Positions 16,833 to 55,349 of a stretch of DNA of 64,000 nt are shown in pieces. The DNA comes from Bacteroidota bacterium (GTDB lineage Bacteria > Bacteroidota > Ignavibacteria > Ignavibacteriales > Melioribacteraceae), in NCBI GenBank assembly GCA_018829205.1, contig JAHJUE010000019.1, positions 124,001 through 188,000 of the forward strand, in the 5' to 3' direction. The translations under genes and the position numbers were made by a program. The notes under the pieces are model-generated. The model did no database searches, was not told the origin of the DNA, and saw only the letters and a program-made list of their open reading frames with translations. Positions within the stretch are counted from its first letter, which is position 1; each line of letters begins with the position of its first letter.

Positions 16833-16833
16833 T

Positions 16834-26628: not shown

Positions 26629-26636
26629 GATGCCTC

Positions 26637-27095: not shown

Positions 27096-27597
27096 TATTA
27101 ACCTCCTTTATTTTAAGTGAGAACTCTTCTGTACCTTCGATAACCTCCACACCTTTCGGCACTTTACCGGACATTTTCATAGCAGTTTTGATACCGTTAA
27201 GATTTGGTTTTACCGATTCCGGCACTACAGTCAGCATCATTTGAGTAGCCGACTTTAGAAATTCATCCATGTCTGTTATCTCAACTTTATCTGCTTTCTT
27301 CCTAATTTTAAGTGTGCCGTGCGGAAGGTTTATTGTCTTCTGATTCTGTGACCGAATAAACGCTTCGAGTTTCTTCTGCAGAAATTCAATCTTCTCTTGA
27401 TGTTTTACATTACGGTTTAAAGCCCAGTCATTTATAATCTCTATTTCAGACTCGGCTTCTTTAATTGTACGTGCTATTAAATTGTACAAATCAGAAATTT
27501 CTTTAATAATTAAATCAAAGTGAGCGAACGACAGCTCTGTTTCTTTCTGCTCTGCTTCAAGCAGAAGCTCGTTTATAAAATCATGTCCTTCTTGCAT
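27079..27597 (-). CDS. gam: Mu Gam-like host-nuclease inhibitor
   Basis: 172 aa. An N-terminal long coiled-coil (about residues 25-100) is followed by PHGTLKIRKKADKVEITD and a C-terminal beta-rich region, the layout of Mu Gam (PF07352). Gam binds double-strand DNA ends and protects them from RecBCD-type exonuclease, and is orthologous to Ku. Its presence indicates that the element passes through a linear or broken DNA stage. It overlaps the following gene by 17 bp. Confidence 0.85.
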   Translation of the reverse strand: MQEGHDFINELLLEAEQKETELSFAHFDLIIKEISDLYNLIARTIKEAESEIEIINDWALNRNVKHQEKIEFLQKKLEAFIRSQNQKTINLPHGTLKIRKKADKVEITDMDEFLKSATQMMLTVVPESVKPNLNGIKTAMKMSGKVPKGVEVIEGTEEFSLKIKEVNNDSTN

Positions 27598-27620
27598 ATA
27601 CTTCCTCCAGTTTGTTTTAG

Positions 27621-27818
27621 TTATTTAAATAAGAACAAATGTCTAATGACTAACATTATTCCGTTCCAAAAGCTTTTTTTCATTTCTTGTTTTTCTTCAA
27701 TAGATAGTTGGATTTCACCGTTGAGATATTTCTTAAGTACAACAACTATCCCGAAGAGTATTCGAAGTAACGCGAATATTATGAATAGAAAGAATATCAC
27801 TGCTAATAGTGTGAACAT
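27621..27818 (-). CDS. Small membrane protein
   Basis: 65 aa from the ATG at 27818, chosen because a strong AAGGAGG ribosome site lies 6-7 bp upstream; a longer frame to 27923 has no such site. Hydrophobic segments occupy residues 3-25 and about 50-62, separated by a charged SIEEKQEMKK loop. Function unknown. It is the first gene of the - strand run that leads into gam and ardC. Confidence 0.6.
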   Translation of the reverse strand: MFTLLAVIFFLFIIFALLRILFGIVVVLKKYLNGEIQLSIEEKQEMKKSFWNGIMLVIRHLFLFK

Positions 27819-27944
27819 GGAACACCTCCTTAATTTGTTATAATTGATTTTTATGTTTTGAGGGTAAAATTGTGATGGATTTTTCTTGATCTCTCGAAAT
27901 ACCCGAAGCTTATTTGTCTTCACAATTAAACTTCAGGAGATCAT

Positions 27945-28124
27945 ATGGGCTTACCGACCAAAATATTTTTAGTGATACTAATTATCATTTCGATACCGAT
28001 TATTATTTATTGCGCAATAATGATTCAAATAGCAAAAGACATTAAGAAAGGTCTTTCAAGACTTAGCGGAGCGTTTAAGAAACTTGGTGTAAAACTCAAA
28101 TCATTAATTATAGGTGTGTCTTAA
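27945..28124 (+). CDS. Small single-helix membrane protein
   Basis: 59 aa on the + strand, starting at ATG 27945 with CAGGAGA seven bases upstream. Residues 7-31 are a hydrophobic helix rich in Ile; the rest is a basic amphipathic helix (KDIKKGLSRLSGAFKKLG). It is divergent from the 65-aa gene and convergent with the 824-aa gene; the shared terminator at 28146-28178 follows. A membrane-active small protein, for example a toxin or holin-like regulator, is possible but not shown. Confidence 0.55.
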   Translation: MGLPTKIFLVILIIISIPIIIYCAIMIQIAKDIKKGLSRLSGAFKKLGVKLKSLIIGVS

Positions 28125-28145
28125 GCGGAGTTTATGGCAAGGAAA

Positions 28146-28178
28146 AAATCCCCACGGATATATACGTGCGGAGGATTT
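28146..28178. terminator. Bidirectional terminator
   Basis: AAATCC/GGATTT (28146-28151 with 28173-28178) and CACG/CGTG (28153-28156 with 28165-28168) form a hairpin between convergent genes, with AT-rich flanks on both sides. Confidence 0.65.
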
Positions 28179-28187
28179 ATTTTACTC

Positions 28188-30662
28188 TTAGTATTGTAGA
28201 TAAACCACGAGACTATTTTTGAGAGGTCTGTTGTTGCTGCGACTTACTGCTTGAACAACTGAATGAATTTTGTAAACACCCTCCGAAATGCGGCACTCTT
28301 CACCAACGTTTAGAATACTTCCCTTAATGAGAGCTTTGTTTGATTCAATCAATATTTCAGAAGCGCATTCATATTTGACACTTGATATTGAATCGCTCGA
28401 CCATATGCGAATGTTCTTTGTAGTTATCCTTTCGACTTTCTTTTCTCTTATTCTATTAAGGCTGCCATTGTTTTTTATATGGCATCCCAATTCTAAGTTT
28501 GCAAGCATTTGAATTGTATCATTAGCTGTTCCTCTTAAACCGTCAATATCCCTAATCCATAATATACTGTCATGTGGTGCTCTGTTAGTTTTATATATCT
28601 GGTAGGCAAAAACTTTCGCGAGCAGACTTCTTTCATCTATCGAATATCTACTAAGCTTCGACAAAAAAGCTTTCTGTATTTTGTCTATCCCTTCCTTGCG
28701 TATTATCTCTTTTTCAAATGCGGGTAGCTGGTCTGTTTTATCAAGCAGTATAGCTATGTTCTTATTATAGTAACCCAACAGTGATACACCAATCTCAAAA
28801 AGAGGATTGTCGAGATTTGATTTGCCTATCTCAATAAGCGGGATATCCAGATTATCAATTTTTCCTTTTACTCTGTTTCCTTTGCTTACAGAACCACTGC
28901 CTAAAATTTCTTTGTCGGCTTCATCTATAAAGTATTTGACCGCCTCCAATAATTCATCAAGCGGATGTTTATCAGCTAAACATACTCTATCTTGAACCTT
29001 TTGTGGAAATCTATAGAGCAATGATTTTGGCAATGGGATATTATTTTCGATTATAAACTCATACATATCTGAGACCGCCTTCATATCGTCATCTGCCGCA
29101 ATGCCGTCTTTAACTGTAGCGTCAATAATCCTTTCAAGATCCCAATAAAAATTATGTCTGATTTTATGGAAATAATCTTTTTGTGTTATTCTTATAGCCG
29201 ATCTTGCCATCTCTCCGTTTGCCGCGTAACCTATATTTGTTGAATTATCTTTTATAGTATTATAAGCACGAATAAGATTAGCTAAAGTATAATCCAGAAT
29301 AGATTTATTTGTGGGAATGTATTTCATTCTTTTCTTAAGCCATTCACTAAACAGTTTATTATCCCATAGAGCCCTTTGAAATTCTATGCGATCAATGACT
29401 GAGTTCTTACTTGGAAAACTGCCGGTGATTGTATGGCCGACTTCAACCTTAACACCGTTATAGATTATTTTAGTATGGATAAGTTCGCCGTATTGGTTTG
29501 GGTTACGATAGATAATTGCTTTGTTATCTTCAACCGGTATAATCCCAACGCTGTCATCAAAGTCAGCGCCTCCGAGTGTTAAAAGTGTATTATACGCGTC
29601 TTTAGGATTTATCCATAGATTACCGAAATTGTCAAGCTCAACTTTATATCGTTTAACCGTTGTAATGAAATTGCCATCTTTATTATGATTTCGTAAATCG
29701 ACTCTTAAGTATGCTCGCTTTCCATCCGGTACTGGAATTCTAAAGACCGGTTCGCCTTTACTATTTTCTGCGTACGTAAGTATAGAACTTCTGAACATTG
29801 TCCATGCCGCTCTCACAAGTCCGGGATATCTTCTGTAATCAACCCTGCTCCAGATTGCTTTTCTTAACGTCCAATTCTCGCTCTCAAACTTTTCATTATC
29901 TATCTCATCAAAGTTATCCAGCCAATTAACGAGTTTGCCTTTAAACAAATCTTCCTTGAATTTTTCGATCCCGTCGAATGCCCATTGAAGATACTGCTCA
30001 CCTTCGAATACTTCCCATAAATTGAGGAGTGATTGTATGTCGAGGCGTAAGGAATTACCTAACTTTACCGGCTCAAAGGCGATATAATTTAATCCGTTAA
30101 TTAGCGTGATCTCTTTCTTAATATTATCATCACCGTATATAACAACATCATGCTCTATCTTATCTGAAACAACGCAATGACCTTTTACTAATCCGTCTTT
30201 GTAGAATAACGTAAACTGAGCTGACATCTCTGGATGCGCTTCTTTCCATCCAAGTCTGTGAGCGAGTCGTAACGATATTAGCGATATACCGTCTGTCTCT
30301 TTTCCGTTATGACTTTGATTCATGTGGATATCCAAGTTATCAATGAACCCACCATACTTACTCGGTCTGAATACACGGCTTAGATATTTACCGGTCTTAA
30401 ACAGATTACTGCTATTGATTTGAATTCCAAACCTACCAAGGAAATCATTTGATTTAATAAGCACACCTTGAGAGTCGTAAACATCAATCGTTCTGAGTTT
30501 ATCTTCTCTCAAATACGCAAAGCTGAATTTACCTTCTAACAGTGTTCTTTCAATATCTGCCTCGCTGAAGAAGAGTGACTGGAATTCCACTTTTGAAATG
30601 TTATGGATTGCGGAATTGAAAAAGTGATACTCATACGAGTTGTTTGCTGTTTGGTTTTTCAT
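28188..30662 (-). CDS. Large protein of unknown family, possible double-psi-barrel RNA polymerase
   Basis: 824 aa, soluble, no signal or membrane segment. I do not recognise it with certainty. Two stretches recall the two-barrel RNA polymerases (bacterial beta', YonO, eukaryotic RdRP): FRIPVPDGKRAYL (about residue 310) followed 60 residues later by LGGADFDDSVGIIPV (about 373), compare the catalytic DFDGD in R-x-P...NADFDGDQMAVHVP; and further on TNIGYAANG (about 490), compare the I-G-x-x-x-N segment of the RdRP class. The third Asp of DxDxD is shifted or absent (DFDDS). It is the largest gene of the mobile region and has its own terminator upstream and downstream. Alternative: a structural or scaffold protein with an accidental match. 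Confidence 0.6.
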   Translation of the reverse strand: MKNQTANNSYEYHFFNSAIHNISKVEFQSLFFSEADIERTLLEGKFSFAYLREDKLRTIDVYDSQGVLIKSNDFLGRFGIQINSSNLFKTGKYLSRVFRPSKYGGFIDNLDIHMNQSHNGKETDGISLISLRLAHRLGWKEAHPEMSAQFTLFYKDGLVKGHCVVSDKIEHDVVIYGDDNIKKEITLINGLNYIAFEPVKLGNSLRLDIQSLLNLWEVFEGEQYLQWAFDGIEKFKEDLFKGKLVNWLDNFDEIDNEKFESENWTLRKAIWSRVDYRRYPGLVRAAWTMFRSSILTYAENSKGEPVFRIPVPDGKRAYLRVDLRNHNKDGNFITTVKRYKVELDNFGNLWINPKDAYNTLLTLGGADFDDSVGIIPVEDNKAIIYRNPNQYGELIHTKIIYNGVKVEVGHTITGSFPSKNSVIDRIEFQRALWDNKLFSEWLKKRMKYIPTNKSILDYTLANLIRAYNTIKDNSTNIGYAANGEMARSAIRITQKDYFHKIRHNFYWDLERIIDATVKDGIAADDDMKAVSDMYEFIIENNIPLPKSLLYRFPQKVQDRVCLADKHPLDELLEAVKYFIDEADKEILGSGSVSKGNRVKGKIDNLDIPLIEIGKSNLDNPLFEIGVSLLGYYNKNIAILLDKTDQLPAFEKEIIRKEGIDKIQKAFLSKLSRYSIDERSLLAKVFAYQIYKTNRAPHDSILWIRDIDGLRGTANDTIQMLANLELGCHIKNNGSLNRIREKKVERITTKNIRIWSSDSISSVKYECASEILIESNKALIKGSILNVGEECRISEGVYKIHSVVQAVSRSNNRPLKNSLVVYLQY

Positions 30663-31091: not shown

Positions 31092-31119
31092 ATCAGAGCA
31101 GAATCTTTTCTGCCCTGAT
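31092..31119 (-). terminator. Terminator of the T9SS/beta-barrel/Met-rich operon
   Basis: ATCAGAGCAGAA (31092-31103) pairs with TTCTGCCCTGAT (31108-31119) with one mismatch and a four-base loop, 33 bp after the stop of the T9SS protein gene. Confidence 0.6.
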
Positions 31120-31151: not shown

Positions 31152-32687
31152 TTATTTAACCAAAATCATTTTTCTACTAAGAAGTACATTATTACCTGAA
31201 AGTTGATAAATATAAATTCCTGAAGTTAATTTGCCAGCATCCCAGTTTACTTTATAGTTACCCGGTGCATATACTCTATTTGTTAAAGTTGCAACTTCCT
31301 GTCCAATAATATTAAATACTTTTACTGAATAGTTACCTTGAGTTTTAATACTAAATTCAATGTTGGTGCTCGGGTTAAAAGGGTTCGGGTAATTTTGATT
31401 CAGCGCAAAATTGTCTGGTATTATTTGCTGTTGATCAGTTATCGAAGTTACAGATTGATTATCAAATAATATTATATAGCTGCTCACTTCTTCATTAGAA
31501 AATGATATTGTATTACTTTCTGTGTTTATTGTTGCGTTTTGGATTTCGACCCAATTTTCTCCCTGGTTATCCCAATATTTTACGGCAATATTATTTTCAT
31601 CAACACCTGAAAACTCTAATTGTATATCAGTATAATGTAACATGAAATCAACATTTGAACCAAGACTCATATGGTTACCCATTCTACCGTTATCCCACAT
31701 TCCGTTACTACCGTTAGGAAAGTACATATTAACTTCATAACCGGCTAATACTTTGTGGTTATCCAAATTCGGAATGTTATTAGGATAAACTTCAAAAAAT
31801 TGACAGAAAAGAGAATCAGGCAAAGAACCTCCGCCATGCCCGTGCATACCTCCGTTCTTCCAACCTGAATGGAAAGTCAGTCTATCCATATTATCGAAAG
31901 GTGAATGAAAACTAATTGTATCATTTGTGTTATGCATCCATCCCCCACCGAAATGACTCCCTAAAGTTGAAGAATCTCTCCACTCAAGTCCATTTATTTC
32001 ATAAACTATTAACATTGGAGTAGCTTCATCATTTTCCAATAAACCGCCAATAATTGTAATACTTTCTCCGCTTGAAGGTCTTGTTGCTCCTGATTCCGGT
32101 TCATACCAATAGGGACCAAAGTTAAGAAAATAATCAGGCAGATTATCAGCATCAATATCAAGATAATAATGCCCAAAATAAAATGTAGTGTCAATAATAA
32201 CAGTTCCACTTAACTCAGTTGTCTTTAATGTATCATGGTCCCAGCCGAATCCATAACCTTGACCGCCATCGTGGTGATTCCCCATATTATGACTATGCCG
32301 CCCCATATTATTCCATTCGGCATAATAAGGATCTCTCCAAAATTCTCCATTAATTTCGTAAACAACTATAGTACTTTCATTCATTCCACCGTCAGCGTGA
32401 AGACCGCCGGTAATAGTAATCTGATCTCCGTTTAACGGTCTTGTTGCGTTTGAACTATCGGGTGTGTACCAAAAAGGACCGAAACTTAAATGATAATCCG
32501 CGTTTGTATCGCCGTCAACATCCAAATAGTAAATTGGATGAACTGAATTTTCATCAATAATAGCAGTGCCTGTAACCGTTACTGATTCTAAAGAATCCGG
32601 GTTCAAATAACCATGCCCTCCGAAATGTTGTCCGTATAAATTTGAAACTATAAACAGACCTAATATTGTAAATATTTGCTTAATCAT
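31152..32687 (-). CDS. Secreted T9SS-sorted protein with two internal repeats
   Basis: 511 aa. A signal peptide (residues 1-19, ending NLYGQ) is followed by two about 95-residue repeats, each with YYLDxDxDxxxDYxLxFGPxWY, a RP-x-G/S-x-x-ITIxGG block and VYEINGxxWRD. A His/Met/Gly-rich linker follows each repeat (HNMGNHHDGG, NGGMHGHGGG). The last 90 residues are a T9SS sorting domain beginning NQNYPNPFNPSTNIEFSI and ending SRKMILVK. The His-rich linkers and the operon with a Met-rich protein suggest metal binding outside the cell. It is the last gene of a three-gene operon starting at 34018. Confidence 0.85.
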   Translation of the reverse strand: MIKQIFTILGLFIVSNLYGQHFGGHGYLNPDSLESVTVTGTAIIDENSVHPIYYLDVDGDTNADYHLSFGPFWYTPDSSNATRPLNGDQITITGGLHADGGMNESTIVVYEINGEFWRDPYYAEWNNMGRHSHNMGNHHDGGQGYGFGWDHDTLKTTELSGTVIIDTTFYFGHYYLDIDADNLPDYFLNFGPYWYEPESGATRPSSGESITIIGGLLENDEATPMLIVYEINGLEWRDSSTLGSHFGGGWMHNTNDTISFHSPFDNMDRLTFHSGWKNGGMHGHGGGSLPDSLFCQFFEVYPNNIPNLDNHKVLAGYEVNMYFPNGSNGMWDNGRMGNHMSLGSNVDFMLHYTDIQLEFSGVDENNIAVKYWDNQGENWVEIQNATINTESNTISFSNEEVSSYIILFDNQSVTSITDQQQIIPDNFALNQNYPNPFNPSTNIEFSIKTQGNYSVKVFNIIGQEVATLTNRVYAPGNYKVNWDAGKLTSGIYIYQLSGNNVLLSRKMILVK

Positions 32688-32738
32688 TTATTTCACCTCT
32701 ATTTTTTAATTAAAAATTATTGTCATTTGTTAAATAAC

Positions 32739-33503
32739 TTAAAGCTCCAAATTAATGCCGCCTGAAAATGAATAATCTGAAGTCGAGTTGTTTAGACCTT
32801 TTGAAGTAATAAAGTTGAGGAACAATCCGCGTTTAATCATATAATTATATCCCACGGCAATTTGTTCCGGTGATTCTGAACCTCGAACAACTGTTGAATA
32901 AGAATCATATCCTAAAATAATTGAGTGTTCCCCGTTCATGAAAGCATAACCGATTCCGGAGCTGATTGTTAAAGGATTTAAAACATTTTCATCTTGAGTA
33001 CCTAAAAACAAGTAACCCACCTGTCCGTACAAAAAGAAACTGCCTATAATCTTCCTTATCCCTACTGCTGTTTGAAAATCAGCGCTTCCTGAACCGAAAT
33101 AATAATCAGCAGGGGCTGTGGGTAACTTCACATATCCTTCAAGTGAAAAAGACGGGAATGATCCGCTTTCCTGAATTAACTTATAACTTCCGTTTATATA
33201 AATATCTCCAAAATCAATGTTATTGAATGCACTCATTCCATTACTGCCCATCATTTCATTTGATGTATTTCCAGTATTGGAATTAGCTGTATTATCATGA
33301 TTAAATATTAATGGAATGCTCAGACTCAGATATAAATCTTGAGTCTGAAACCTAATCCCATTATATAACAAATAGTCATTCTGCTGGTCGTTGATCTGCA
33401 TTTGAAATGAAGTGTAATAATACCATTTATCTTGAGCAGCAATATTCGAAACAACCATAAAGGATACTAAAATACTAATGTATATATTAAACAACTTTTT
33501 CAT
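32739..33503 (-). CDS. Outer-membrane beta-barrel protein
   Basis: 254 aa with a signal peptide (cleavage near IAAQD) and alternating beta strands ending in an aromatic-poor but typical final strand (YSFSGGINLEL). The pattern, including ADYYFGSGSADFQTAVGIRK and SSGIGYAFMNGEHSIILGYD, resembles the transporter-like barrels (DUF3187 or phenol-pathway type). It lies between the Met-rich protein and the T9SS protein. Likely an outer-membrane channel linked to metal handling; the substrate is unknown. Confidence 0.65.
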   Translation of the reverse strand: MKKLFNIYISILVSFMVVSNIAAQDKWYYYTSFQMQINDQQNDYLLYNGIRFQTQDLYLSLSIPLIFNHDNTANSNTGNTSNEMMGSNGMSAFNNIDFGDIYINGSYKLIQESGSFPSFSLEGYVKLPTAPADYYFGSGSADFQTAVGIRKIIGSFFLYGQVGYLFLGTQDENVLNPLTISSGIGYAFMNGEHSIILGYDSYSTVVRGSESPEQIAVGYNYMIKRGLFLNFITSKGLNNSTSDYSFSGGINLEL

Positions 33504-33517
33504 TTTTACCCTTATAG

Positions 33518-34018
33518 TTATTCAGCTTTTTTATTGCCGTTATTATTCTGGTAATAATTTAACATGTTCTTATAATTCTTCATTACTTCATCCATATTAG
33601 ACATCATTTCATTCATGTTTTTCATCATATTTTCATCTCCCATCATCTCTTTGTTTTTCAGCAAATTATTCATCTGCTCCAACATACCTTCCATATGTCC
33701 AGACATTTTCTGCATGTCTTTCATCATGCTCATTGAACCTTCATTCATCATATTATTGGAGTGACCCTTGTTATTCATTTTATGATCATTGCCGGTCATG
33801 TTCTGATTCATATTTTGGTTCATATTCTGCATCATATCCTGCATTTGAGTTGTCATTTTGTTCATATGTTCCGTCATCTGCTGCATATTCTGCATATTAT
33901 GGTTCATCATTTGAGACGAATTGTTGTGCATGTTACCATGTTGCCCGAATAAAGAATTATTACTTGATACAAAAAGTAACATAATTATTACTGCTAAATA
34001 TTTCTTTAAGTTATTCAT
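33518..34018 (-). CDS. Exported Met/Asn/His-rich protein
   Basis: 166 aa. After a signal peptide (to about residue 25, FGQHG) the protein is extremely rich in Met (about 37 residues, over a fifth) with many Asn, Gln and His in heptad-like spacing (MxxMxxHM). This composition is found in periplasmic copper- or silver-binding proteins (CusF-like, ZraP/CnrX-type helical hairpins). A sigma-54-type promoter lies 50 bp upstream. A fused, frameshifted copy of its N-terminus is present at 34616-34733. The whole three-gene operon probably answers the same metal signal as the efflux genes to the right. Confidence 0.75.
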   Translation of the reverse strand: MNNLKKYLAVIIMLLFVSSNNSLFGQHGNMHNNSSQMMNHNMQNMQQMTEHMNKMTTQMQDMMQNMNQNMNQNMTGNDHKMNNKGHSNNMMNEGSMSMMKDMQKMSGHMEGMLEQMNNLLKNKEMMGDENMMKNMNEMMSNMDEVMKNYKNMLNYYQNNNGNKKAE

Positions 34019-34383
34019 ATTGATCCTTTATTTATTGTGATTATTAATTTATTTATGCATAAATAGAGACAATTATAATGCCAAAGTCAATTATTTAGTT
34101 TATGATCTAAAATAAACTCGGGAAATGCCTGGAATTTTATATTTCTTACCTGAAAGTCTCAAGTCAGGCGCATGATATGTTAAGGATTTACTCGGGATAA
34201 TCGATAATATCATTCAAATCTAAACTTACTATTCGAGTAGTATATTGGATGTTATGTATTATTTATTCAGGTTGGGCGCTTTTATTTTATACCATAAAAT
34301 ACTTTAAATAATTTTATAGTTTTAAATTACTTTAAAAATGCAGGAAGGTTAAAAGTCATACTCCATTACTGAAAATCATTTTT
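34019..34383. other. Promoter region without genes
   Basis: About 365 bp without a credible coding frame. It contains the sigma-54-type promoter at 34068-34083 and, at 34301-34340, a run with three TTTAAA-type blocks similar to the upstream elements of the other sigma-54 promoters but farther away. Confidence 0.5.
34068..34083 (-). promoter_or_regulatory. Sigma-54-type promoter of the Met-rich operon
   Basis: On the - strand TGGCATTATAATTGTC gives GG at -24 and GT (usually GC) at -12 with exactly ten bases between. It lies 50 bp before the start at 34018. The TTGT variant is shared with the promoter at 63558. Confidence 0.5.
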
Positions 34384-34733
34384 TCACAGTGCATGAACTT
34401 CAAAATTAGAAATCAACAGACTCCCTTTCCCAAAGAATCTGAATCCGACAGCACCAGAATCCGGTTCAGCTCCGTGCTCATGGACAACTAACTTATTATT
34501 TATATTTATCCTAAAATGTTTTCCTGAAATTATAGATTTCATATCTATCCATCCTTGAGTCAGAAGTTTTTCCTTTTCAAATATCTCTTCCCTATCGTCT
34601 GAAATTCATCCTATTTGAGAAGCATTGTTTTGCACATTATTGTGCATATTGTTGTGCTGGACAAATATTGAATTGTTGTTTGATACAAAAAGTATTAAAG
34701 TCATTATTATAAATAGTTTTTTAAGTTTTTCAT
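34384..34733 (-). pseudogene. Chimeric pseudogene: Met-rich protein head joined to DUF2231-protein tail
   Basis: The first part (34733 to about 34616) reads like the N-terminus of the Met-rich protein (compare LILFVSNNNSIF with MLLFVSSNNSLF) after a one-base frameshift. After a TGA it continues, at about 34612, as the last 75 codons of the DUF2231 gene at 37013: GWIDMKSIISGKHFR matches GWVDIKIIISGKHFR and both end SxFEV. The flanking TTATTCATAAGTAAGCA also recurs at about 34764 and 36929. So an imperfect duplication of this neighbourhood was fused by deletion and then decayed. Confidence 0.85.
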
Positions 34734-34896: not shown

Positions 34897-36882
34897 TTAT
34901 TTTACAAGTATCATCTTCTTAACGCTTACAAAATTGTTTGTCTGCATTCTGTATAAATAGATACCCGAAGCATAGTTGGCTGCGTCCCATGTAGCGTTGA
35001 AAACGCCTGGATTCATATTTTTATCAACCAGTACTTCAATTTCATTTCCTATAGCATCGTAAACAGTAATCTTAACATTTCCTGCTTCTGGAATTGAGAA
35101 TCTAATAGTAGTAAAAGGGTTGAAGGGGTTGGGATAATTTTGTTCCAATATGTAACTAACAGGTAAACCTTCAATTTCTTCAACTGCTGTAGTGCCTTCT
35201 AATTGAGCGATGGTTTCCATTAAAATTCCTGTCACAAATTTAGCATTGTGAACACCAAAGCTTCCGTCCGCTTCAACCATTTCCCAAATATAAAATGCTT
35301 TAGCTTGAATAGGCGACCATGAAGAATCTATTGTAGAAATTTCAGTTGATCCAAGCGGAGGAAGCAATAATTCAATTTTTTCGAGAGACCCGTAAACTTC
35401 CGCCTGTAATCCTTCTTCAGTACCGTCACCGTCTAAGTCGGCAGAACCGTTAACTTTAACAGAAATTTTATCAAATGATTCAAAACTATGGCAAGGTGTA
35501 CATGCTGCAACGTTATCAACACCTTCAGGTGTGCTCATTCTAAATGAGTGGCCGCCGCTTAATAATACTTTACCTTCTTCATCAACAGCGCCTTGAGCAT
35601 TCATATGGCAGCTAACGCATGCATCAGTAGTATAGTTTATATGATTAGTAGATTGAAAAGCCGTTCCTAAATCAGGATAATTTTTAGCTAATAATATTTC
35701 CGACTGCGGACCGTAGTGTGGGCCGTAGTATGGACTTAGGTTATTTAAATAATTGGATGTATAATCTACAGCATCTCTACGTGTCTTGTGGCAGTTCATA
35801 CAAAGCTTGCCCATTCCCCCAACAGTAACATCTTCACCATTTGCAAGTGTTGCTTCAACTGTCCTTAATTGATGTTTATTTGTAGCATCGTGAGGATCGT
35901 GGCAAGTTGCACAAGTGATGTTAACATTTTCAGGTTCGTTTTCAGTTAAGCCTGCTTTTCCGCCTTTAATATATTTAACAAATCCTGCACCGTTATGGCA
36001 AGGCGCACATGAAGATCTTGTTTGCCCCGCACCTTCGCCTGTTAGTGTCGCGTGTTTTGAGACATCCCACTGTGATGGAAATACGTGATGCGTACCGGAG
36101 TCATGGCACTTGGCACAAGTTTCTTGTGAAATTGAGTTAACAATTTTGGAATCGGAAGTATTGCCCATGTGTGCGTTTCCGGGACCGTGACAAGATTCAC
36201 ACTGAACGTTTGCTAATTCCATTGCTGAAGGGGAGTTAGTTAGAACCTGGTTGTAAGCTTCTTCGCTTAATGTATCCGGGAAAACAAAATCTCTATCGTC
36301 AAAACCGTTGTTGTCTGCGTTTGCATCATAACCGGTTGAGTGACAGCGAACGCAGCTTTCTTTAAAATTGCTGCTGAGAGTCCCTTTTAAAGCTCGCTCT
36401 AAGGTAGTTGCGTGGTTTGTTTCAGCCCATTTTGAAGCCGTTTCTGTGTGGCATGTTGCACAGTTAAAACCTGTTGGTAAACCTAAATAGGTACCCGCAT
36501 TAAAGGTAATTTCATCATATCCGGCGCTGACAGAAAATTGAAAAGTGTATGTTCCGGTAACATCTAATACAATGGAGGTGATTTGTGTATTTGAATCGAG
36601 TTCCATTGAATTTCCATAAGAGGCTGATGAACCGTCAGGTAATTTAACAATTAACCATTGCCCTGCAGACGCATCTCCGTTTGCGGAAAATCCTTTTAGA
36701 TAAACCTTGGTACCTGTTCCAACATTTGTTAAACCGTTGTATGATAAATCAAAAATATCCTCTGCCGAAACCGCAGCTTTCCTGTCTGTTACCCCGTAGG
36801 TATCTATGGTAACATTTTGAGCTAATGCTAATGTGGCAAACACTAACATTATAAAAATAGAAGCAACTATTTTTTTGAGCAT
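34897..36882 (-). CDS. Nine-haem c-type cytochrome with T9SS sorting domain
   Basis: 661 aa. A signal peptide is followed by a beta-sandwich domain (about residues 22-140) and nine CxxCH haem sites: CATCH, CVRCH, CESCH, CAKCH, CAPCH, CATCH, CMNCH, CVSCH and CTPCH (about residues 143-468). Several additional His could act as distal ligands. The C-terminal 80 residues are a T9SS sorting domain (NYPNPFNPFTTIRFSI ... KKMILVK). Multihaem proteins sorted this way sit on the cell surface and can carry electrons to external acceptors. It is near a CcmF-type haem lyase and metal transport genes on the same strand. Confidence 0.92.
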   Translation of the reverse strand: MLKKIVASIFIMLVFATLALAQNVTIDTYGVTDRKAAVSAEDIFDLSYNGLTNVGTGTKVYLKGFSANGDASAGQWLIVKLPDGSSASYGNSMELDSNTQITSIVLDVTGTYTFQFSVSAGYDEITFNAGTYLGLPTGFNCATCHTETASKWAETNHATTLERALKGTLSSNFKESCVRCHSTGYDANADNNGFDDRDFVFPDTLSEEAYNQVLTNSPSAMELANVQCESCHGPGNAHMGNTSDSKIVNSISQETCAKCHDSGTHHVFPSQWDVSKHATLTGEGAGQTRSSCAPCHNGAGFVKYIKGGKAGLTENEPENVNITCATCHDPHDATNKHQLRTVEATLANGEDVTVGGMGKLCMNCHKTRRDAVDYTSNYLNNLSPYYGPHYGPQSEILLAKNYPDLGTAFQSTNHINYTTDACVSCHMNAQGAVDEEGKVLLSGGHSFRMSTPEGVDNVAACTPCHSFESFDKISVKVNGSADLDGDGTEEGLQAEVYGSLEKIELLLPPLGSTEISTIDSSWSPIQAKAFYIWEMVEADGSFGVHNAKFVTGILMETIAQLEGTTAVEEIEGLPVSYILEQNYPNPFNPFTTIRFSIPEAGNVKITVYDAIGNEIEVLVDKNMNPGVFNATWDAANYASGIYLYRMQTNNFVSVKKMILVK

Positions 36883-37012: not shown

Positions 37013-38101
37013 TTATAACACTTGAACTTCAAAATCAGAAATCAAAAAACTTCCTTTCCCAGATAATTTGAATCCGGTTGTACCCGAATCCGGTTCAGCT
37101 CCATGTCCATGAACGACCAATTTATTATTTATATTAGTCCTAAAATGTTTTCCCGAAATTATGATTTTAATATCTACCCATCCTTGAGCCAGAAAAGTTT
37201 CCTTCTCAAAAACTTCATCCATTCCATTAGAAATACGTCCCATAGAAATTTCATTCTCTTTGATCAGCACATAATCATAATTATTACTATCAATATAATG
37301 GTGAACTATTGAAAAAGAACCTTGCAATGAATCAAGGTTTGCGTTTAATTCGATCTGAACATTTTTTAACTTATTCCCATAACTGACAAGCATTGAATTG
37401 TTATTAGGATTTATTGTTGTAAATGTTTCGTTTTTATCATGATATAAATCTATCTCGATATTCGGGCTTTGTCCATTCAGCCATGTGAAGTCATTTTTTA
37501 ATGTTGATACAGCACCTACAGCAGAATAGAATTTCCATGAACCATTATCTGAAGTATTTATTGACGAGACAATTTCTTCTTTTGCTTTTTCTTGAATATT
37601 ATAGGTTTCATTCGAATTGTTAGTAATATTATTTAATTTGCCTGTACCTAATCCGTAACCATATACCATCTTAGCTCCGGCATCGGCGGTGAGATAAACA
37701 AGTATTAATCCGCCTAAGCCAAACAAAAAAATCACCGGCTTCATAAGGTTTGAAATTTTATTCAGCAACTTTTTTTCAAAGATTAAAAATACCGTATAAA
37801 CAACCGTAAATACTGTAAAATACAATACTGTTATTTCTGCCCAATCAGCATGGCTGGTAAGTGTACTCATTACTTTCACAGGAAGTTCAAGTGAATCGGC
37901 GGCAGCCCTGCCTGTAAAGAAAGCGGTTATTGCCGAGATCGTACCTAAAATGTATAGACTTATTGAGACTTTTGGCAGCCATTCAAATTTCTTTAAAACA
38001 AGACTGAAAAAGTTTGTAAAGACAGCTAAGATTAAAATGGCTATTGGAAAATGCACAATTAATGGATGTATGTTGGGTGTCCATTCTGGTATAATCTGCA
38101 T
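37013..38101 (-). CDS. DUF2231 membrane protein with C-terminal beta-jellyroll
   Basis: 362 aa. The N-terminal 160 residues have four transmembrane helices with the DUF2231 pattern HPLIVHFPIAILIL and HADWAEITVLYFTVF, in which paired His can bind haem or metal. The C-terminal 170 residues are a beta-rich domain resembling a LamG/3-keto-disaccharide hydrolase-type jellyroll (LAQGWVDIKIIISG, GTTGFKLSGKGSFLISDFEV). It is usually found with cytochromes or YHS proteins. The tail of this gene was copied into the pseudogene at 34384. Confidence 0.75.
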   Translation of the reverse strand: MQIIPEWTPNIHPLIVHFPIAILILAVFTNFFSLVLKKFEWLPKVSISLYILGTISAITAFFTGRAAADSLELPVKVMSTLTSHADWAEITVLYFTVFTVVYTVFLIFEKKLLNKISNLMKPVIFLFGLGGLILVYLTADAGAKMVYGYGLGTGKLNNITNNSNETYNIQEKAKEEIVSSINTSDNGSWKFYSAVGAVSTLKNDFTWLNGQSPNIEIDLYHDKNETFTTINPNNNSMLVSYGNKLKNVQIELNANLDSLQGSFSIVHHYIDSNNYDYVLIKENEISMGRISNGMDEVFEKETFLAQGWVDIKIIISGKHFRTNINNKLVVHGHGAEPDSGTTGFKLSGKGSFLISDFEVQVL

Positions 38102-42210: not shown

Positions 42211-42215
42211 TTCAA

Positions 42216-47890: not shown

Positions 47891-48349
47891 TTATTCTTTA
47901 ACTTTAAACCCATTTTTAATCAGATTCATTTTTGCTTCTTCAACAGAAACTTCTTTTAATTTCATTTCACATAGAGGGCAGCTTCCTGCTTCATCTGAAA
48001 TTACATTCCAATCCATCATATCTTGGAAAACTTTTCCGTCTTTATTTTTGTCAATCGCCTGTAAATCAATTAGACCGTCATGTATAATTGAATCAGTCAT
48101 ATGTCCGTGCATACTTTCCTTATGCATAGATTCTTTTTTCATATCATGCATTTTATGATTTTTGTCTTTCATCATTTTATGCATCGATGTTGAGTCTTTC
48201 ATATCCATCATATGTTTATGGTCTTTACCCATCATTTTATGTTTATGTGTTGTTGAATCGGGTTTATCCTGTGCAATAGATTGCGAAGTGTTTAAGATAA
48301 ATACTAAAGCAAATGTCATTAACAAGATGGAAAGATTTCTTAACTTCAT
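47891..48349 (-). CDS. Exported His/Met-rich protein with EF-hand-like, Cys-pair domain
   Basis: 152 aa. A signal peptide (to about IAQDK) is followed by a His/Met/Lys-rich middle (HKHKMMGKDHKHMMDMKD pattern). The C-terminal 60 residues form a domain with an EF-hand-like loop (DKNKDGKVFQD) and CPLCEMKL. The same domain ends the CusB-type protein of this operon. A metal chaperone or sensor in the periplasm is likely. It is the last gene of the efflux operon. Confidence 0.8.
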   Translation of the reverse strand: MKLRNLSILLMTFALVFILNTSQSIAQDKPDSTTHKHKMMGKDHKHMMDMKDSTSMHKMMKDKNHKMHDMKKESMHKESMHGHMTDSIIHDGLIDLQAIDKNKDGKVFQDMMDWNVISDEAGSCPLCEMKLKEVSVEEAKMNLIKNGFKVKE

Positions 48350-49126: not shown

Positions 49127-52100
49127 TTATGATTCGAGTGATAAGTTAGAATTTTGTTTTGCTATCATTTTATTAACTTCTCTTCGTTTAAGAGCATAAA
49201 ATATTGCGGGATATACAGTGAGTTCCATTATAAAGCTTGTTATAATTCCACCGACCATCGGAGCGGCGATTCTTTTCATAACATCGGAACCTATGCCTGT
49301 GCCAATTAGAATTGGGAAGAGTCCGAGCATGGTTGTCATAACCGTCATCATTTTGGGTCTAATTCTTTTAACTGCACCTTCAAAAATTGCTTCACGGAGT
49401 GAGGCGAAAGAATTCATTAAACCTTTTTTCTTAACTTTCTCATATGCTATATCAAGATAAAGCAGCATGATAACACCTGTTTCCGCATCAACTCCAACTA
49501 AGGCGATTATTCCTACCCATACCGCAACACTCATGTTAAACCCGGCAAGGTATAAAAACCAAATTGCGCCAACCATTGAAAACGGTACCGCGAGAAGTAC
49601 AATTCCAGTTTTTACAAGCGATTTAGTATTTATATATAAGAGCAAAATAACTATCAGCAAGGTTATTGGAATAACGAGAGCTAATTTTTCACTCGCCCTT
49701 TCCATATATTCGTATTGCCCGCTCCAAATAATTGAATAACCTGCAGGTAGTGTAATTTCCCTATTAATTGTTTCTTGTGCTGTTTTAACATATGTGCCCA
49801 CATCAATATTTTTTAAATCAATATAAACCCAGGCGTTAGGACGAGCATTTTCCGATTTAATAGCAGGGGGACCCTTTTTAATTTGCAAATCAGCAAGTTC
49901 AACTAAAGGAACATTCCCGCCTCCCGGAATAGGAACCAATACTCTTTTCAGTGATTCTATGTTATCCCTGTAATCTCTTTGGTAACGGAGATTGACAGGG
50001 TATCTTTCCAATCCTTCTACTGTTTTAGTAATATTCATGCCACCGACTGCAGACATTATGACATCTTGAACATCATTGATAGAAAGACCATATCTGGCAA
50101 TTGCATCCCTGTTAATTTCGAAATCTACATAATTACCGCCGACAGATCTTTCTGCGTATGCCGATCTTGTACCCGGTATTGTCTTTGCAACTTGTTCTAT
50201 TTCTTTACCTATTTTTTGAAGAACTTCAAGATCAGGTCCCGCTATTTTTATCCCGACAGGCGTTTTAATTCCTGTGGATAACATATCAATCCTTGTTTTT
50301 ATCGGCATCGTCCATGCGTTTGTTAAACCGGGAATTTGTATTGCCGAATTTAGTTCTTCAACAAGTTTATCAACCGTCATTCCCTCGCGCCATTCTTCTT
50401 TTGGTTTTAATTGAATTGTTGTTTCAATCATTGAAAGCGGAGCCGGGTCTGTTGCTGTTTCCGCCCTGCCTATTTTTCCAAACACGGTCTCTACTTCAGG
50501 AAATGTTTTGATTATTCTGTCGGTCTGCTGAATTAATTCTTTTGCCTTTGTTACTGAAATTCCGGGTAAGGTAGTAGGCATGTATAATAAATCACCTTCA
50601 TACAGGGGAGGCATAAATTCAGAGCCTAATTTTTTATAAGGATAAATCGTAAGAAGTATAAGAATAACCGCTGTCCCAATAACATACCATCTCTTATTCA
50701 TTACAAAATCAACAACCGGGTGATAAACTTTCGCTAATATTCTTGTTAATGGGTTTTCATCTTCGTGTCTCATTTTACCGCGCACGAAGAAGCCGATAAG
50801 TATCGGGACTATAGTTACTGCTAAAATGGCAGCCATACCCATAGAATAAGTCTTTGTAAATGCGAGCGGTTTAAATAATCTGCCCTCTTGCTGCTCCAAT
50901 GTAAATACCGGTAAGAAAGACACAGTAATAACTAATAGTGAATAGAATATTGAGGGACCTACTTCTTTCGCGGATTCTAAAATAACAGCCCAATGCGGCC
51001 GCTTTTGCCCGTCGGGTTTTTCCTGCTCATGAACCATGTGAGAGTGGGCGTTTTCAACCATAACAATCGCGGCATCCACCATAGCTCCTATTGCAATTGC
51101 AATACCTCCAAGTGACATTATATTAGCGTTGATTCCTTGATATTTCATAATTACGTAAGCTGCGAGCACTGCTGTCGGCAATGTAAATATTGCAACCAGA
51201 GAGCTGCGCACATGCAGAAGAAAAATAATTATGATGATCGCTACTATTACACTTTCCTCAATTAAAGTAGTTTTTAGATTATCAATTGCCGCGTCAATTA
51301 ATTCCGAGCGGTCGTATGAAGTTATTATTTTTACGTCATCAGGCAACGAGGTTTTTAATTCATCTAACCTTTGTTTAACCCTGTTAATTACATCAATCGC
51401 GTTTTCTCCAAAACGCATTACAATAATGCCGCCTACTGTTTCACCTTCGCCATTCCAATCGGCAATTCCTCTTCTTAATTCCGGTCCAATATCAATTGTT
51501 GCTACATTTTCCAAATAAACAGGCGAACCGGTTGTTGGTGAATGCCCGATTGAAACTTTTTTAAGGTCATCAATACTTTTTATATAACCAAGACCCCTAA
51601 CCATAAACTCCATTTCACTAATTTCCAGCAGCCTTCCGCCAACATCATTGTTGCTCTGCTTAATTGCCGTTTTTACTTTGCTTAACGGAATACCGTATGA
51701 AGCAAGTTTGTTAGGATCGAGATTAACCTGATATTGTTTTACGAAACCGCCTATGCTTGCTACTTCGGAAACACCCGGCAAAGCGGATAATTCATATCGT
51801 AAAAACCAATCTTGTATCGACCTTAATTCCTGCAAATCACGTTTATCGGATTGCAATACATATTGATAAACCCAGCCAAGCCCGGTTGCATCGGGGCCTA
51901 ATTGAGGAGACACACCCGCAGGGAGTTCCTTCTGCATTGAACTTAGGTATTCAAGCACACGGCTCCTTGCCCAGTAAATATCCGTACCGTCTTCAAAGAT
52001 TATGTAGACCATTGAAAAACCGAAAAAAGAATAACCCCTTACAACCGACGCAAACGGGACAGACAACATTTTTGTAGTCATCGGGTAAGTAACCTGGTCC

Positions 52101-52315
52101 TCAACAATCCTTGGACCCTGACCCGCGTATTCGGTATATATTATAACTTGAACATCACTTAGGTCAGGCAATGCGTCAACCGCTGTATTTTGTATTGACC
52201 AGATGCCGCCGCCTATAAGCGCAAGCGTTAATATTATCACCATGAATTTATTGTTTATTGACCATTCTATTAGCTTTGATATAAAACTATCTTTTTGTGT
52301 ATCGCCAGCAACCAT
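49127..52315 (-). CDS. cusA: RND heavy-metal efflux pump (CusA/CzcA family)
   Basis: 1062 aa, full length. Twelve helices in two repeats with large periplasmic loops. The N-terminal ALPDLSDVQVIIYTEY and the TM4 segment GAMVDAAIVMVENAH, and the second-half VGVDAETGVIMLLYLD, are hallmarks of the heavy-metal (HME) branch of RND pumps. The Met residues of the periplasmic cleft are compatible with copper/silver, but I cannot decide between Cu/Ag and Zn/Co/Cd from the sequence. It is encoded after cusB and cusC on the same strand. Confidence 0.95.
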   Translation of the reverse strand: MVAGDTQKDSFISKLIEWSINNKFMVIILTLALIGGGIWSIQNTAVDALPDLSDVQVIIYTEYAGQGPRIVEDQVTYPMTTKMLSVPFASVVRGYSFFGFSMVYIIFEDGTDIYWARSRVLEYLSSMQKELPAGVSPQLGPDATGLGWVYQYVLQSDKRDLQELRSIQDWFLRYELSALPGVSEVASIGGFVKQYQVNLDPNKLASYGIPLSKVKTAIKQSNNDVGGRLLEISEMEFMVRGLGYIKSIDDLKKVSIGHSPTTGSPVYLENVATIDIGPELRRGIADWNGEGETVGGIIVMRFGENAIDVINRVKQRLDELKTSLPDDVKIITSYDRSELIDAAIDNLKTTLIEESVIVAIIIIIFLLHVRSSLVAIFTLPTAVLAAYVIMKYQGINANIMSLGGIAIAIGAMVDAAIVMVENAHSHMVHEQEKPDGQKRPHWAVILESAKEVGPSIFYSLLVITVSFLPVFTLEQQEGRLFKPLAFTKTYSMGMAAILAVTIVPILIGFFVRGKMRHEDENPLTRILAKVYHPVVDFVMNKRWYVIGTAVILILLTIYPYKKLGSEFMPPLYEGDLLYMPTTLPGISVTKAKELIQQTDRIIKTFPEVETVFGKIGRAETATDPAPLSMIETTIQLKPKEEWREGMTVDKLVEELNSAIQIPGLTNAWTMPIKTRIDMLSTGIKTPVGIKIAGPDLEVLQKIGKEIEQVAKTIPGTRSAYAERSVGGNYVDFEINRDAIARYGLSINDVQDVIMSAVGGMNITKTVEGLERYPVNLRYQRDYRDNIESLKRVLVPIPGGGNVPLVELADLQIKKGPPAIKSENARPNAWVYIDLKNIDVGTYVKTAQETINREITLPAGYSIIWSGQYEYMERASEKLALVIPITLLIVILLLYINTKSLVKTGIVLLAVPFSMVGAIWFLYLAGFNMSVAVWVGIIALVGVDAETGVIMLLYLDIAYEKVKKKGLMNSFASLREAIFEGAVKRIRPKMMTVMTTMLGLFPILIGTGIGSDVMKRIAAPMVGGIITSFIMELTVYPAIFYALKRREVNKMIAKQNSNLSLES

Positions 52316-52351
52316 TTATTTATTCCTCATGAATTTTAGCGTATGCTAATT

Positions 52352-54025
52352 TTACTTAACTTTAAAACCGTTACTTATTAAATTTTCTTTTGCTTCGGAT
52401 AATGTTACTTCCTGAAGTTTCATTTCACAGATGGGGCATTTACCAGGTTTATCCGAAACAACATTCCAATCCATAAAATCCTGGAATACTTTTCCGTCCT
52501 TGTTTTTATCTATTTCCGATAAATCAATCACACCTTTTCTAATTATACTTTCGGATTCCATCTCAGCGTGTTGATGATTTTCATCAGACATTTCCATTTT
52601 TTCCATTTCGGAATGATTATGTTCCATTTCATTATTCATTTCATCTTTTTTTGAATCGCTTTTATCGGAAGTGTATAAACTAACCGCCGCTCTTAAGCTG
52701 CTTTCTGAATCAATCATAAATTGCGCTGATGTAACAATTTTATCTCCTGGGTTTAATCCGTTGATAACCTGGTAATAACCATCTGAATACCCACCCAGCT
52801 TCACTTCAATTGGTTTAAATTTTCCTTCGCCTAAAGCTAAGATTACAATATTGTTCTTCCCGCTTCTTATTACAGATGTTTCAGAGACTACTGGTTGTTC
52901 TTCATAAGTCTTTCCTTGAATCTCAACATTAGCGAACATAGCCGGCTTTAATTCATCATTCGCGTTCTGAACATCAATTCTTAATTGGATTATTCTTGTT
53001 TTGGGGTCAACGGTTGGATAAATAAATGTTACCTTTCCTTCATAAGTTTTAGCAGGCAGATAGCTAAAATTAATCTTAACCTTAGAACCGATACTCACTT
53101 TTGCTAATTCACTTTCGTAAATATCTGCTTTTAACCATAAGTTGGATAAATCAGCGATATGCAGAATCTGCTTCCCGGCCATAATTTTTTCACCTTCAAT
53201 AACATATTTCATTAAAACAGTGCCATTCATTGGTGCATATAGAGTCATATATTTATTAATTTGTTTTGTTTTAATAAGTTTTTGTATATCCGATTCAGAA
53301 ATATCAAGCAACTCGAGTTTTTTTATAGTATTGTTTATTAGCTCATCACCACTTTTAAGAATGTCATGATCTTCAGTATTTCCTGTCGCTTGTTTATATT
53401 CTATCGCCGTAAGAAGTTCTTGCTGTGCGGCAACAAGTTCAGGTGAATATATATCAACCAATTTTTGACCTTTCTTAACAACTTGTCCGGTATAATTAAC
53501 ATAAAGTTTTTCAATCCATCCGTTAACCTTTGTTGTTACTATATATTCATTTCTTTCATCAGTAGATAAAACCCCGTTTGTAGTTATTTTATTAGATAGT
53601 TTCTTAAGGCTTACTGTAGCTATTTTAACATTCATACTTTGTTGAACCGCACCGTCAATTGTAACAACTCCGCTCGCTCCACCTTCATCTTCATAAACAG
53701 GCACTAAATCCATTCCCATCTTCGATTTACCGGGTTCATCATAAATTTCATTTGGGTCCATCGGAGCACGCCAGTATAGAATTTTCTTTTCGCCGGTTTC
53801 ATTTCCGCTTGAGCCTTTTTTGGGCACTAATTTCATTCCGCATATTGGGCAGTTGCCAGGTTCTTTCAATATTATTTCAGGGTGCATTCCGCACGTATAT
53901 AATTGTTTTTCTTCAGCCACATTTTCAGAATTGCTTGATTTACCGGAATTAAAAAATAATAGATAGCTTGATCCTGCCAATACAATTATGACTAAAGATA
54001 CTATTACAATAATTTTCTTATTCAT
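52352..54025 (-). CDS. cusB: CusB-type periplasmic adaptor with extra metal-binding domains
   Basis: 557 aa, longer than E. coli CusB (407). After an N-terminal anchor there are two heavy-metal-binding (YHS-like) segments: YTCGMHPEI...CPICGMKLVP and the APMDPNEIYDEPGKSKMGMDLVPV repeat (about residues 40-112). The adaptor body follows (barrel-sandwich and beta-barrel, GWIEKLYVNYTG, IYSPELVAAQQELL). A His/Met-rich linker leads to a C-terminal domain with an EF-hand-like loop and CPICEMKL, shared with the 152-aa exported protein. It links the inner pump to the outer channel. Confidence 0.93.
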   Translation of the reverse strand: MNKKIIVIVSLVIIVLAGSSYLLFFNSGKSSNSENVAEEKQLYTCGMHPEIILKEPGNCPICGMKLVPKKGSSGNETGEKKILYWRAPMDPNEIYDEPGKSKMGMDLVPVYEDEGGASGVVTIDGAVQQSMNVKIATVSLKKLSNKITTNGVLSTDERNEYIVTTKVNGWIEKLYVNYTGQVVKKGQKLVDIYSPELVAAQQELLTAIEYKQATGNTEDHDILKSGDELINNTIKKLELLDISESDIQKLIKTKQINKYMTLYAPMNGTVLMKYVIEGEKIMAGKQILHIADLSNLWLKADIYESELAKVSIGSKVKINFSYLPAKTYEGKVTFIYPTVDPKTRIIQLRIDVQNANDELKPAMFANVEIQGKTYEEQPVVSETSVIRSGKNNIVILALGEGKFKPIEVKLGGYSDGYYQVINGLNPGDKIVTSAQFMIDSESSLRAAVSLYTSDKSDSKKDEMNNEMEHNHSEMEKMEMSDENHQHAEMESESIIRKGVIDLSEIDKNKDGKVFQDFMDWNVVSDKPGKCPICEMKLQEVTLSEAKENLISNGFKVK

Positions 54026-54074
54026 TACTACTACTCCGATTGATTTCTTTTCAATAATTAAAATTTATTTACAA

Positions 54075-55349
54075 TTAATAATTTGAATTACCAGTTAAGA
54101 ATTCTAACTGCGATAACTCTTTAAGGTACGCGGTTCTTATTCTATAAAGATTTGTTTCTACTTCATAAACCTTGTTCTGAGCATCTAACACATTAATAAA
54201 ATCTATATTTCCTACTTGATAGTTGGCAATAGTTGCTTTTAGAGACTGTTCAGCTTGCGGCAGCAACCCTTCTCTAATAAGTTTTTCTCTTTCAACTAAT
54301 TCATTTAATTTTGAAACAGATATTCCAAAATTCTTGTTCAACAACTGCAAAGCTGTTTCATACTGATCGGCATACATTTTTTGCATGAGTTGAGCTTCTT
54401 CGACCTTCGCTGATTTTTTACCGCCGTAATCAAATGGTAAATTGAAACCCACCGTTACTGAGACCAAATCATTTAAAGAGGTATTTGTTCTCGATATTTC
54501 ATCTCTCTGCGAGTACTGGAGTGAAAAATTGAAATTTGGATAAAATTCGTAATCGGCAAGACTTTCCATCAACTGTGATTTTTGTTTCGCTAAAGTAATT
54601 CCTTTTAAAAAAGGTCTATTTTGTTTTGCTGACTGAACGAGGTTATCTATAATATAATGCTCTGAAATAATAGAAGGGACTTGAGCAGTCTTTATATCTA
54701 CATCCGATGCTTGAAGAAGGTATGAATTTAGCGCAGCAAGATTTGATTGTTCATTCCCTCGCAACTCCTCAATTCTATCTTTTATTTTAGTTAGCTCAAC
54801 TTCGATCTGTATTAAATTTTGCTGACTTGCGTTTGAAACTGTGTATTTGGTTTTTACTACTTGAGAAATTTGTTCAAGATTCTTTTTACTTTTTTCGGCA
54901 ATTCTTATTGCTTCTCTGGTAAACCTTAAATCGTAATAAATTTTTCTAACATCGTTAGCTATTTCATTCCTTGCATCATCTATTTCCTGCTGTACAATTT
55001 CTCCGTCTTTACTTAATACATCAGCGGCAGCACTCAATTTACCCGGAAATGGGACTGCCTGGCTTAGACCGAGTATCTTTCCCGTCATCGGTTCTTGTGT
55101 AAAAGAAAAACTATTAGTCGGCAAATTCATTAACCCGAAAGTCAACATTGGATCCGGTAAATTTGAGAACTGAGCAATCTTCGAATTAGCAACTCCTTGC
55201 TTGTTTTCGAGGGTTTTTAGTTTAGGACTTAGTTCGATTGCTTTCTTAATAAGGCTTTCTAAATAAACATCGCTTTGTTGCGGGTAAACATTTGTAATTG
55301 ATACAAAAAAGAGAAAAATCAAAAAAAGTGATAAGCTTAAGTGTTTCAT
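54075..55349 (-). CDS. cusC: TolC-family outer-membrane channel
   Basis: 424 aa. A signal peptide (to about VYPQQ) precedes two repeats of long coiled-coil helices, the OEP fold, e.g. KKNLEQISQVVKTKYTVSN and SLKATIANYQVGNIDFINVLDAQNKVYE, which is the characteristic end of the second repeat. It provides the outer-membrane exit for the CusBA complex. It is the first large gene of the efflux operon; a sigma-54-type promoter and a 32-codon gene lie directly upstream. Confidence 0.9.
   Translation of the reverse strand: MKHLSLSLFLIFLFFVSITNVYPQQSDVYLESLIKKAIELSPKLKTLENKQGVANSKIAQFSNLPDPMLTFGLMNLPTNSFSFTQEPMTGKILGLSQAVPFPGKLSAAADVLSKDGEIVQQEIDDARNEIANDVRKIYYDLRFTREAIRIAEKSKKNLEQISQVVKTKYTVSNASQQNLIQIEVELTKIKDRIEELRGNEQSNLAALNSYLLQASDVDIKTAQVPSIISEHYIIDNLVQSAKQNRPFLKGITLAKQKSQLMESLADYEFYPNFNFSLQYSQRDEISRTNTSLNDLVSVTVGFNLPFDYGGKKSAKVEEAQLMQKMYADQYETALQLLNKNFGISVSKLNELVEREKLIREGLLPQAEQSLKATIANYQVGNIDFINVLDAQNKVYEVETNLYRIRTAYLKELSQLEFLTGNSNY

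Follow-up and report, generated by a model that had tools for sequence, protein, structure and literature searches.

Copper resistance in Caulobacter requires the disordered methionine/histidine (Met/His) tail of PcoB (PMC12509749), SilE is a disordered silver sponge (PMC5008109), and FapF exports unfolded polypeptide substrates (PMC5557850). Once CusCBA or P-type ATPases have acted, the way in which metal gets across the outer membrane is only partly understood, as is the role of Met-rich tails there. The locus examined here lies in a 64000-nucleotide stretch (the window; positions 124001–188000 of contig JAHJUE010000019.1, GenBank assembly GCA_018829205.1) of the 4.6 Mb genome of a member of the Melioribacteraceae (Bacteroidota). 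Three adjoining minus-strand open reading frames (ORFs), each preceded by a ribosome-binding-like sequence and separated by gaps of 14 and 51 bp, were found to encode a secreted Met-rich protein (METRICH), an outer-membrane barrel (BARREL) and a protein with duplicated domains and His-rich linkers secreted by the type IX secretion system (T9SS; HISRICH). A first-pass annotation of the window had described these three genes in the same way, and that description held. It had also proposed that they form one transcription unit with a sigma-54-type promoter and a terminator, which could act as an extracellular metal capture or storage chain beside CusCBA. Overall its observation was partly confirmed and its interpretation partly supported. 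What the locus shows is more aptly described as a METRICH-BARREL pair that is conserved, has no name so far and is often located in copper/silver islands.

BARREL was found in 30 of 79 genomes of the family, and METRICH in the identical 30. In the loci retrieved, METRICH is located directly 5' of 28 of 33 barrels, often with a 4-bp overlap, and the two are separate ORFs in every pair locus seen. Of the five exceptions, three are barrels that are truncated or lie at contig ends (L091, L098 and L117; in L091, METRICH was found next to the barrel, where the contig stops), and two are additional barrels located on the opposite side of METRICH (L106 and L112). METRICH in these last two loci is flanked by two different barrels (L106:8207-10340; L112:6591-8770), suggesting a duplicated or hetero-oligomeric channel. 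Outside the family, where the gene directly 5' of the barrel was required to have at least 10% Met, the pair was present in 18 of 20 loci (exceptions L277 and L278).

HISRICH was detected in 28 of the 79 family genomes and in 14 of 395 sampled genomes of the phylum. It occurs together with BARREL in 18 family genomes against 10.6 expected (Fisher p 4e-4), and is found less than 1 kb from the barrel at 6 of the 33 barrels (the window, L033, L095, L099, L102 and L113). Two more genomes carry the trio together (L138 and L145), bringing the total to about 8. Two gene orders occur, METRICH-BARREL-(DUF2231-like)-HISRICH and HISRICH-METRICH-BARREL. HISRICH is also present in Stygiobacter electus, a culturable relative. 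In the contig collection, 83 stretches encode HISRICH relatives, with titles that include Ignavibacteria, Calditrichota, KSB1, Neomarinimicrobiota, Zixibacteria, Cloacimonetes and Rhodothermales, and METRICH and BARREL are present in 10 of the 80 loci kept. The first-pass annotation had named a lack of conservation of the trio as a sign against its interpretation, and such a lack was not observed: within the family METRICH and BARREL always occur together and HISRICH co-occurs with them above chance, but HISRICH is separable. The conserved unit is an obligate METRICH-BARREL pair with HISRICH as a frequent optional third gene. The literature listings on PF13557/FapF with copper or Met-rich proteins, on CopB/PcoB in Bacteroidetes and on metal resistance in Ignavibacteria, drawn from a library with few subscription journals, contained no description of the pair.

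BARREL matches PF13557 (Phenol_MetA_deg; 27.8 bits, cut-off 22), which was the only family in a Pfam scan up to E 1, with no match to the CopB family, and no relative was found in the plasmid collection. Its 12-stranded model (predicted local distance difference test score 82, predicted template modelling score (pTM) 0.74; 11 aligned sequences) is nearest to FapF among solved structures (Z 23.5, 2.3 Å, 212 residues, 16% identity), followed by a COG4313 channel (Z 20.8). FapF is also the only clear relative in the PDB of the BARREL sequence profile (E 4e-5). PcoB was considered first, on account of the combination of a Met-rich part with a barrel, but membership of BARREL in that group was demoted when the fold search ranked FapF far ahead, PcoB (7PGE) appearing at rank 50 (Z 12.7, 4.1 Å, 178 residues). 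The modelled fold of BARREL is far nearer FapF than PcoB. As the modelled chain (from aa 25) begins in strand 1, the plug helix and the periplasmic coiled coil of FapF are absent from the model.

METRICH contains 37 Met (22%), 36 Asn, 13 Gln, 7 His and no Cys in 166 aa, and has a signal-peptide-like N-terminus. An alignment of 28 sequences revealed shared, spaced Met residues, a conserved AQ at the expected signal-peptide cut and a C-terminal region of Met heptads. No Pfam or NCBIfam family matched METRICH above cut-off, and candidates such as DUF948 and DinG were rejected because their scores, far below the cut-offs, look like chance matches of low-complexity sequence. PHROGs gave no match for METRICH, BARREL or HISRICH.

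As FapF-type barrels export unfolded polypeptide (PMC5557850), the main rival explanation is that METRICH is the unfolded cargo of an exporter, forming a metal-binding polymer or amyloid-like matrix at the cell surface. The rank of FapF in both the fold and the profile comparisons fits this, as do the small size, low complexity and Met/Asn/Gln-rich composition of METRICH and its obligate pairing with BARREL. However, the BARREL model is without the helical plug and coiled coil, the Met heptads look helical, unlike amyloid repeats, and partner genes of the Fap system (FapA-E) were not noticed beside the pair, though no search was aimed at them. We consider this explanation rather unlikely.

In 30 of the 46 pair loci a metal gene (encoding CusCBA, a copper P-type ATPase or a heavy-metal-binding protein) lies no more than 9 kb away, the labels having been assigned by BLAST to about 40 reference proteins from this genome and its relatives, so that remote metal genes are missed. 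METRICH has 23% Met in these 30 loci and 17% in the other 16 (p 5e-5), and the Met+His content of the BARREL loop between strands 3 and 4 is 10.3% in 34 barrels of metal lineages and 3.8% in 13 of the lineage that lacks such genes (p 1.4e-4), although both comparisons are between lineages, and thus are confounded by phylogeny and not independent. Outside this loop, Met+His is 1.8% in the metal lineages and 3.0% in the other. The Met test omitted four Met-rich ORFs not located 5' of a barrel (two in L036, one in L099 and one in L108); the loop test omitted barrels shorter than 240 aa and outgroup barrels with E >1e-25 (L277 and L278), and its lineage labels were fixed by locus beforehand (L264-L276 being those without metal genes). 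Met and His are thus enriched in METRICH and in this loop of BARREL in the metal-linked lineages.

The genes found most often beside the pair encode the efflux systems CusCBA and P-type ATPases, which argues against the possibility that the pair imports copper, scavenging it for cuproenzymes. Sequence cannot reveal the direction of transport, and the island in the window does include a TonB-type receptor, FtrD/FtsX/ABC genes and cytochrome-maturation genes that would suit import, an explanation we nevertheless regard as decidedly improbable.

The sorting tail of HISRICH exceeds the cut-offs of PF18962 (39.6 bits against 27) and TIGR04183 (36.2 against 23), and the genome carries a T9SS translocon gene (SprA_N, 132 bits, in a frame of 2375 aa). 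The genome has 107 matches to HISRICH, nearly all limited to this tail. In the model (predicted local distance difference test score 84, pTM 0.83; 56 sequences), which includes two five-stranded domains, the order is OB-like domain 1, a His/Gly linker, OB-like domain 2, a Gly/His/Met linker, a ZU5-like domain and the tail. The first five-stranded domain aligns to OB folds with moderate Z values of about 6 to 7, and residues 222-390 align to ankyrin ZU5 domains (Z 10.8, 2.7 Å, 126 residues). As Foldseek gave no match for the model below E 0.001, the names OB-like and ZU5-like are approximate, and no Pfam family above cut-off was found for the body formed by these three domains.

HISRICH has 20 His residues in 511 aa, mostly in the linkers, where His+Met reaches 18-19% against 2-6% in the domains, and the linkers exceed the domains in His+Met in all 56 aligned homologues. 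No individual linker His is well conserved in the 56 sequences, and the Asp residues of two loops in the OB-like domains are far better kept. By their pattern (DxDxDGxxDY-type) these loops resemble a calcium-binding loop. HISRICH could instead be a conventional T9SS protein that is stabilised by calcium and acts at the surface or binds glycans, with linkers that are flexible Gly/His spacers and have no metal role. This would agree with the conservation of the loops and with OB-like and ZU5-like folds being generic interaction modules, and we think it somewhat unlikely. The linker bias in every homologue speaks against it, as do the neighbourhoods: at least one recognised metal-type gene was found in 36 of 80 HISRICH loci and in 2 of 20 loci around other T9SS proteins that served as controls (p 0.003), where the 36 include loci counted for METRICH and BARREL as metal-type genes, and the controls all come from this one genome, nearly all in full 20-kb windows, against an average of 14 kb for the test windows. 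A core efflux or heavy-metal-binding gene is present in 29 of the 80. The partners vary, and include CusCBA, copper and zinc-type ATPases, ArsR/ACR3-like, DUF302, CpxP/ZraP-like and ZraSR-like genes.

Another full-length paralogue of HISRICH (52% identity) is located 8.6 kb beyond the end of the window (L009:9598-11190), with a P-type ATPase, DUF302, CpxP/ZraP-like and two-component genes as its neighbours. In a further set of loci (L031:11190-17692, and also L030, L120, L121 and L128) the genes after HISRICH encode a small sigma-70-region-4 protein, a TPR protein, a large TPR-CHAT protein and another T9SS protein; the Pfam scan of this run covered the L031 copies.

Taken together, we estimate a probability of about one half that METRICH and BARREL constitute a dedicated two-gene copper/silver outer-envelope module with HISRICH as an accessory. 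METRICH would be a periplasmic sponge for Cu(I)/Ag(I), passing from disordered to helical, to which CusCBA or P-type ATPases may deliver metal. It would act at the periplasmic mouth of BARREL, a FapF-type 12-stranded channel through which the metal could then exit across the outer membrane. HISRICH, exported by the T9SS, may buffer the extruded metal at the cell surface with its Met/His linkers, its DxDxDGxxD loops more likely holding calcium and shaping the OB-like domains; this outside buffer is the least supported step.

Besides the phylogenetic confounding given above, several observations weigh against such a metal module. The 16 pair loci without a nearby metal gene include the window locus itself, where none was recognised within 9 kb, and two loci of the family. 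The closeness of the fold to FapF makes polypeptide export an equally natural reading of BARREL. No metal gene was recognised in 44 of the 80 HISRICH loci, and HISRICH also adjoins arsenic, zinc-type and regulatory genes. In one outgroup lineage (13 loci, L264-L276) no metal gene was recognised in the neighbourhood of the pair, hence its ancestral job need not be metal. The pair in this lineage is Gln-rich and located near stress-type or housekeeping genes. Its METRICH counterpart is related to METRICH by profile comparison (97.8%, E 8e-13), with the caveat that both are low-complexity, and its profile gave only weak matches in the PDB (E 0.04 to 0.09). These 13 pairs would suit a general envelope module, a porin with a chaperone or a helical gate, that metal islands have simply co-opted and in which the Met of METRICH reflects drift or oxidation sensing. 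However, the Met/His enrichment of both METRICH and BARREL tracks the metal-linked loci, and we think a general module of this kind improbable.

A more specific proposal, which we hold as doubtful, is that the pair represents a new class of outer-membrane gate. METRICH would be a detached periplasmic gate or plug, in the role played by the coiled coil in FapF and the disordered tail in PcoB, and Met enrichment of METRICH and BARREL in the metal-linked lineages would have made a polypeptide-type channel a Cu(I)/Ag(I) conduit, with the T9SS protein as an outside sink and the Gln-rich lineage keeping an ancestral non-metal job.

Table 1. Positions in the window of the three genes, their parts and other features of the locus
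Feature	Coordinates	Strand	Basis or remark
METRICH, secreted Met-rich protein, 166 aa	33518..34018	-	ORF, composition, alignment; helix-like Met heptads
BARREL, outer-membrane protein, 254 aa, PF13557 family	32739..33503	-	Pfam, 12-stranded model, nearest fold FapF
Disordered Asn/Met/Gly loop of BARREL, strands 3-4	33222..33296	-	Model; predicted extracellular from strand order
HISRICH, T9SS-secreted protein, 511 aa	31152..32687	-	Pfam/NCBIfam, model, composition
DxDxDGxxD-type loop, HISRICH OB-like domain 1	32496..32522	-	First D in 56/56 homologues
His-rich linker 1 of HISRICH	32229..32336	-	His+Met 19%
Equivalent loop, HISRICH OB-like domain 2	32133..32159	-	First Asp kept in 54/56
His/Met/Gly linker 2 of HISRICH	31827..31973	-	His+Met 18%
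T9SS type A sorting tail of HISRICH, PF18962/TIGR04183	31164..31391	-	Pfam, NCBIfam
12-bp hairpin 3' of HISRICH	31092..31119	-	Strong (z -3.4), terminator-like, no T tract
Weak sigma-54-like site, TTGGCATTATAATTGTC	34068..34084	-	Score 15.4 of 20.8, without -12 GC
Decayed remnant, METRICH N-terminus then DUF2231 C-terminus	34387..34725	-	Inside the 878-bp gap
DUF2231 membrane protein (context)	37013..38101	-	Relative directly 3' of BARREL in several genomes
Met/His-rich heavy-metal-binding-domain protein, PF19335 (context)	47891..48349	-	Pfam
CusA, CusB (heavy-metal-binding domains) and CusC genes (context)	49127..55349	-	Same island

The sigma-54-type promoter proposed for the operon was scored and then rejected. 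The candidate site has a low score and lacks the -12 GC, sites scoring at least 15 numbered 78 in the window against about 58 in shuffled sequence, which was judged not above chance, and none was seen conserved 5' of METRICH in relatives. With 30 matches to sigma-54 activators in the genome, sigma-54 may be used elsewhere in it. A sequence repeated 5' of several METRICH genes, TTGGAATGTAATTTCCG, was also discarded as a promoter element, because its letters appear to encode a WNVIS motif of the upstream heavy-metal-binding gene. As to the terminator, the hairpin 3' of HISRICH is strong, but it has no T tract and was not among the terminators listed by the terminator scan.

The statement that the genes stand beside CusCBA is accurate in that the two sets share one island and one strand, but the cus genes are 15 kb upstream, beyond other genes and a gap of 878 bp. 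This gap separates METRICH from the next upstream gene (34897-36882), which encodes a multihaem protein with a T9SS tail. It contains a remnant of METRICH and DUF2231 sequence, the DUF2231 part being 68% identical to the intact copy further upstream, suggesting that an extra METRICH...DUF2231 copy was probably once present there. A block of CcmF, TPR, ABC, FtsX, FtrD-like, TonB-type receptor and CcmH genes occupies positions 38564-47795 and partly recurs beside METRICH-BARREL in L106, L112, L118, L259 and L262. A P-II-like gene (48763-49104) directly follows CusA, an arrangement seen again in several related clusters. On the other side, positions 14197-30662 include two tyrosine-integrase-like ORFs, an antirestriction/RadC-like set and large helicase-like ORFs (by eye, from translations), which suggests a mobile island ending near the metal island.

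The three proteins were compared with described systems. HISRICH resembles T9SS type A cargo in its sorting tail, above both cut-offs, and in the SprA-type translocon of the genome, but differs in having a body without a Pfam family; it adds a possible extracellular metal buffer by way of type IX secretion. METRICH is like SilE/PcoE (PMC5008109) in being a small, secreted, Met-containing and probably disordered protein near Cus/Sil-type efflux genes, whereas it has 22% Met and few His, is coupled to a barrel and has no family match or demonstrated homology. BARREL is a 12-stranded barrel of the FapF type (Z 23.5; profile E 4e-5) but its model is without plug helix or coiled coil, and it is paired with a Met-rich, probably helical protein encoded in a metal island. 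The pair as a whole resembles PcoB/CopB in combining a Met/His-rich disordered part with an outer-membrane barrel in copper resistance clusters (PMC12509749). The PcoB tail and barrel are, however, one chain, whereas METRICH is the product of a separate coupled gene and BARREL matches PF13557 and not CopB (Z 12.7 to PcoB against 23.5 to FapF). We therefore read the module as a putative functional counterpart of PcoB and SilE in which the barrel is of the FapF type and the Met-rich part has a gene of its own. As an obligate pair with natural metal-linked and non-metal-linked versions, it makes the question of outer-membrane metal passage testable with two small genes, and it connects the barrels of FapF polypeptide export and PcoB copper transport.

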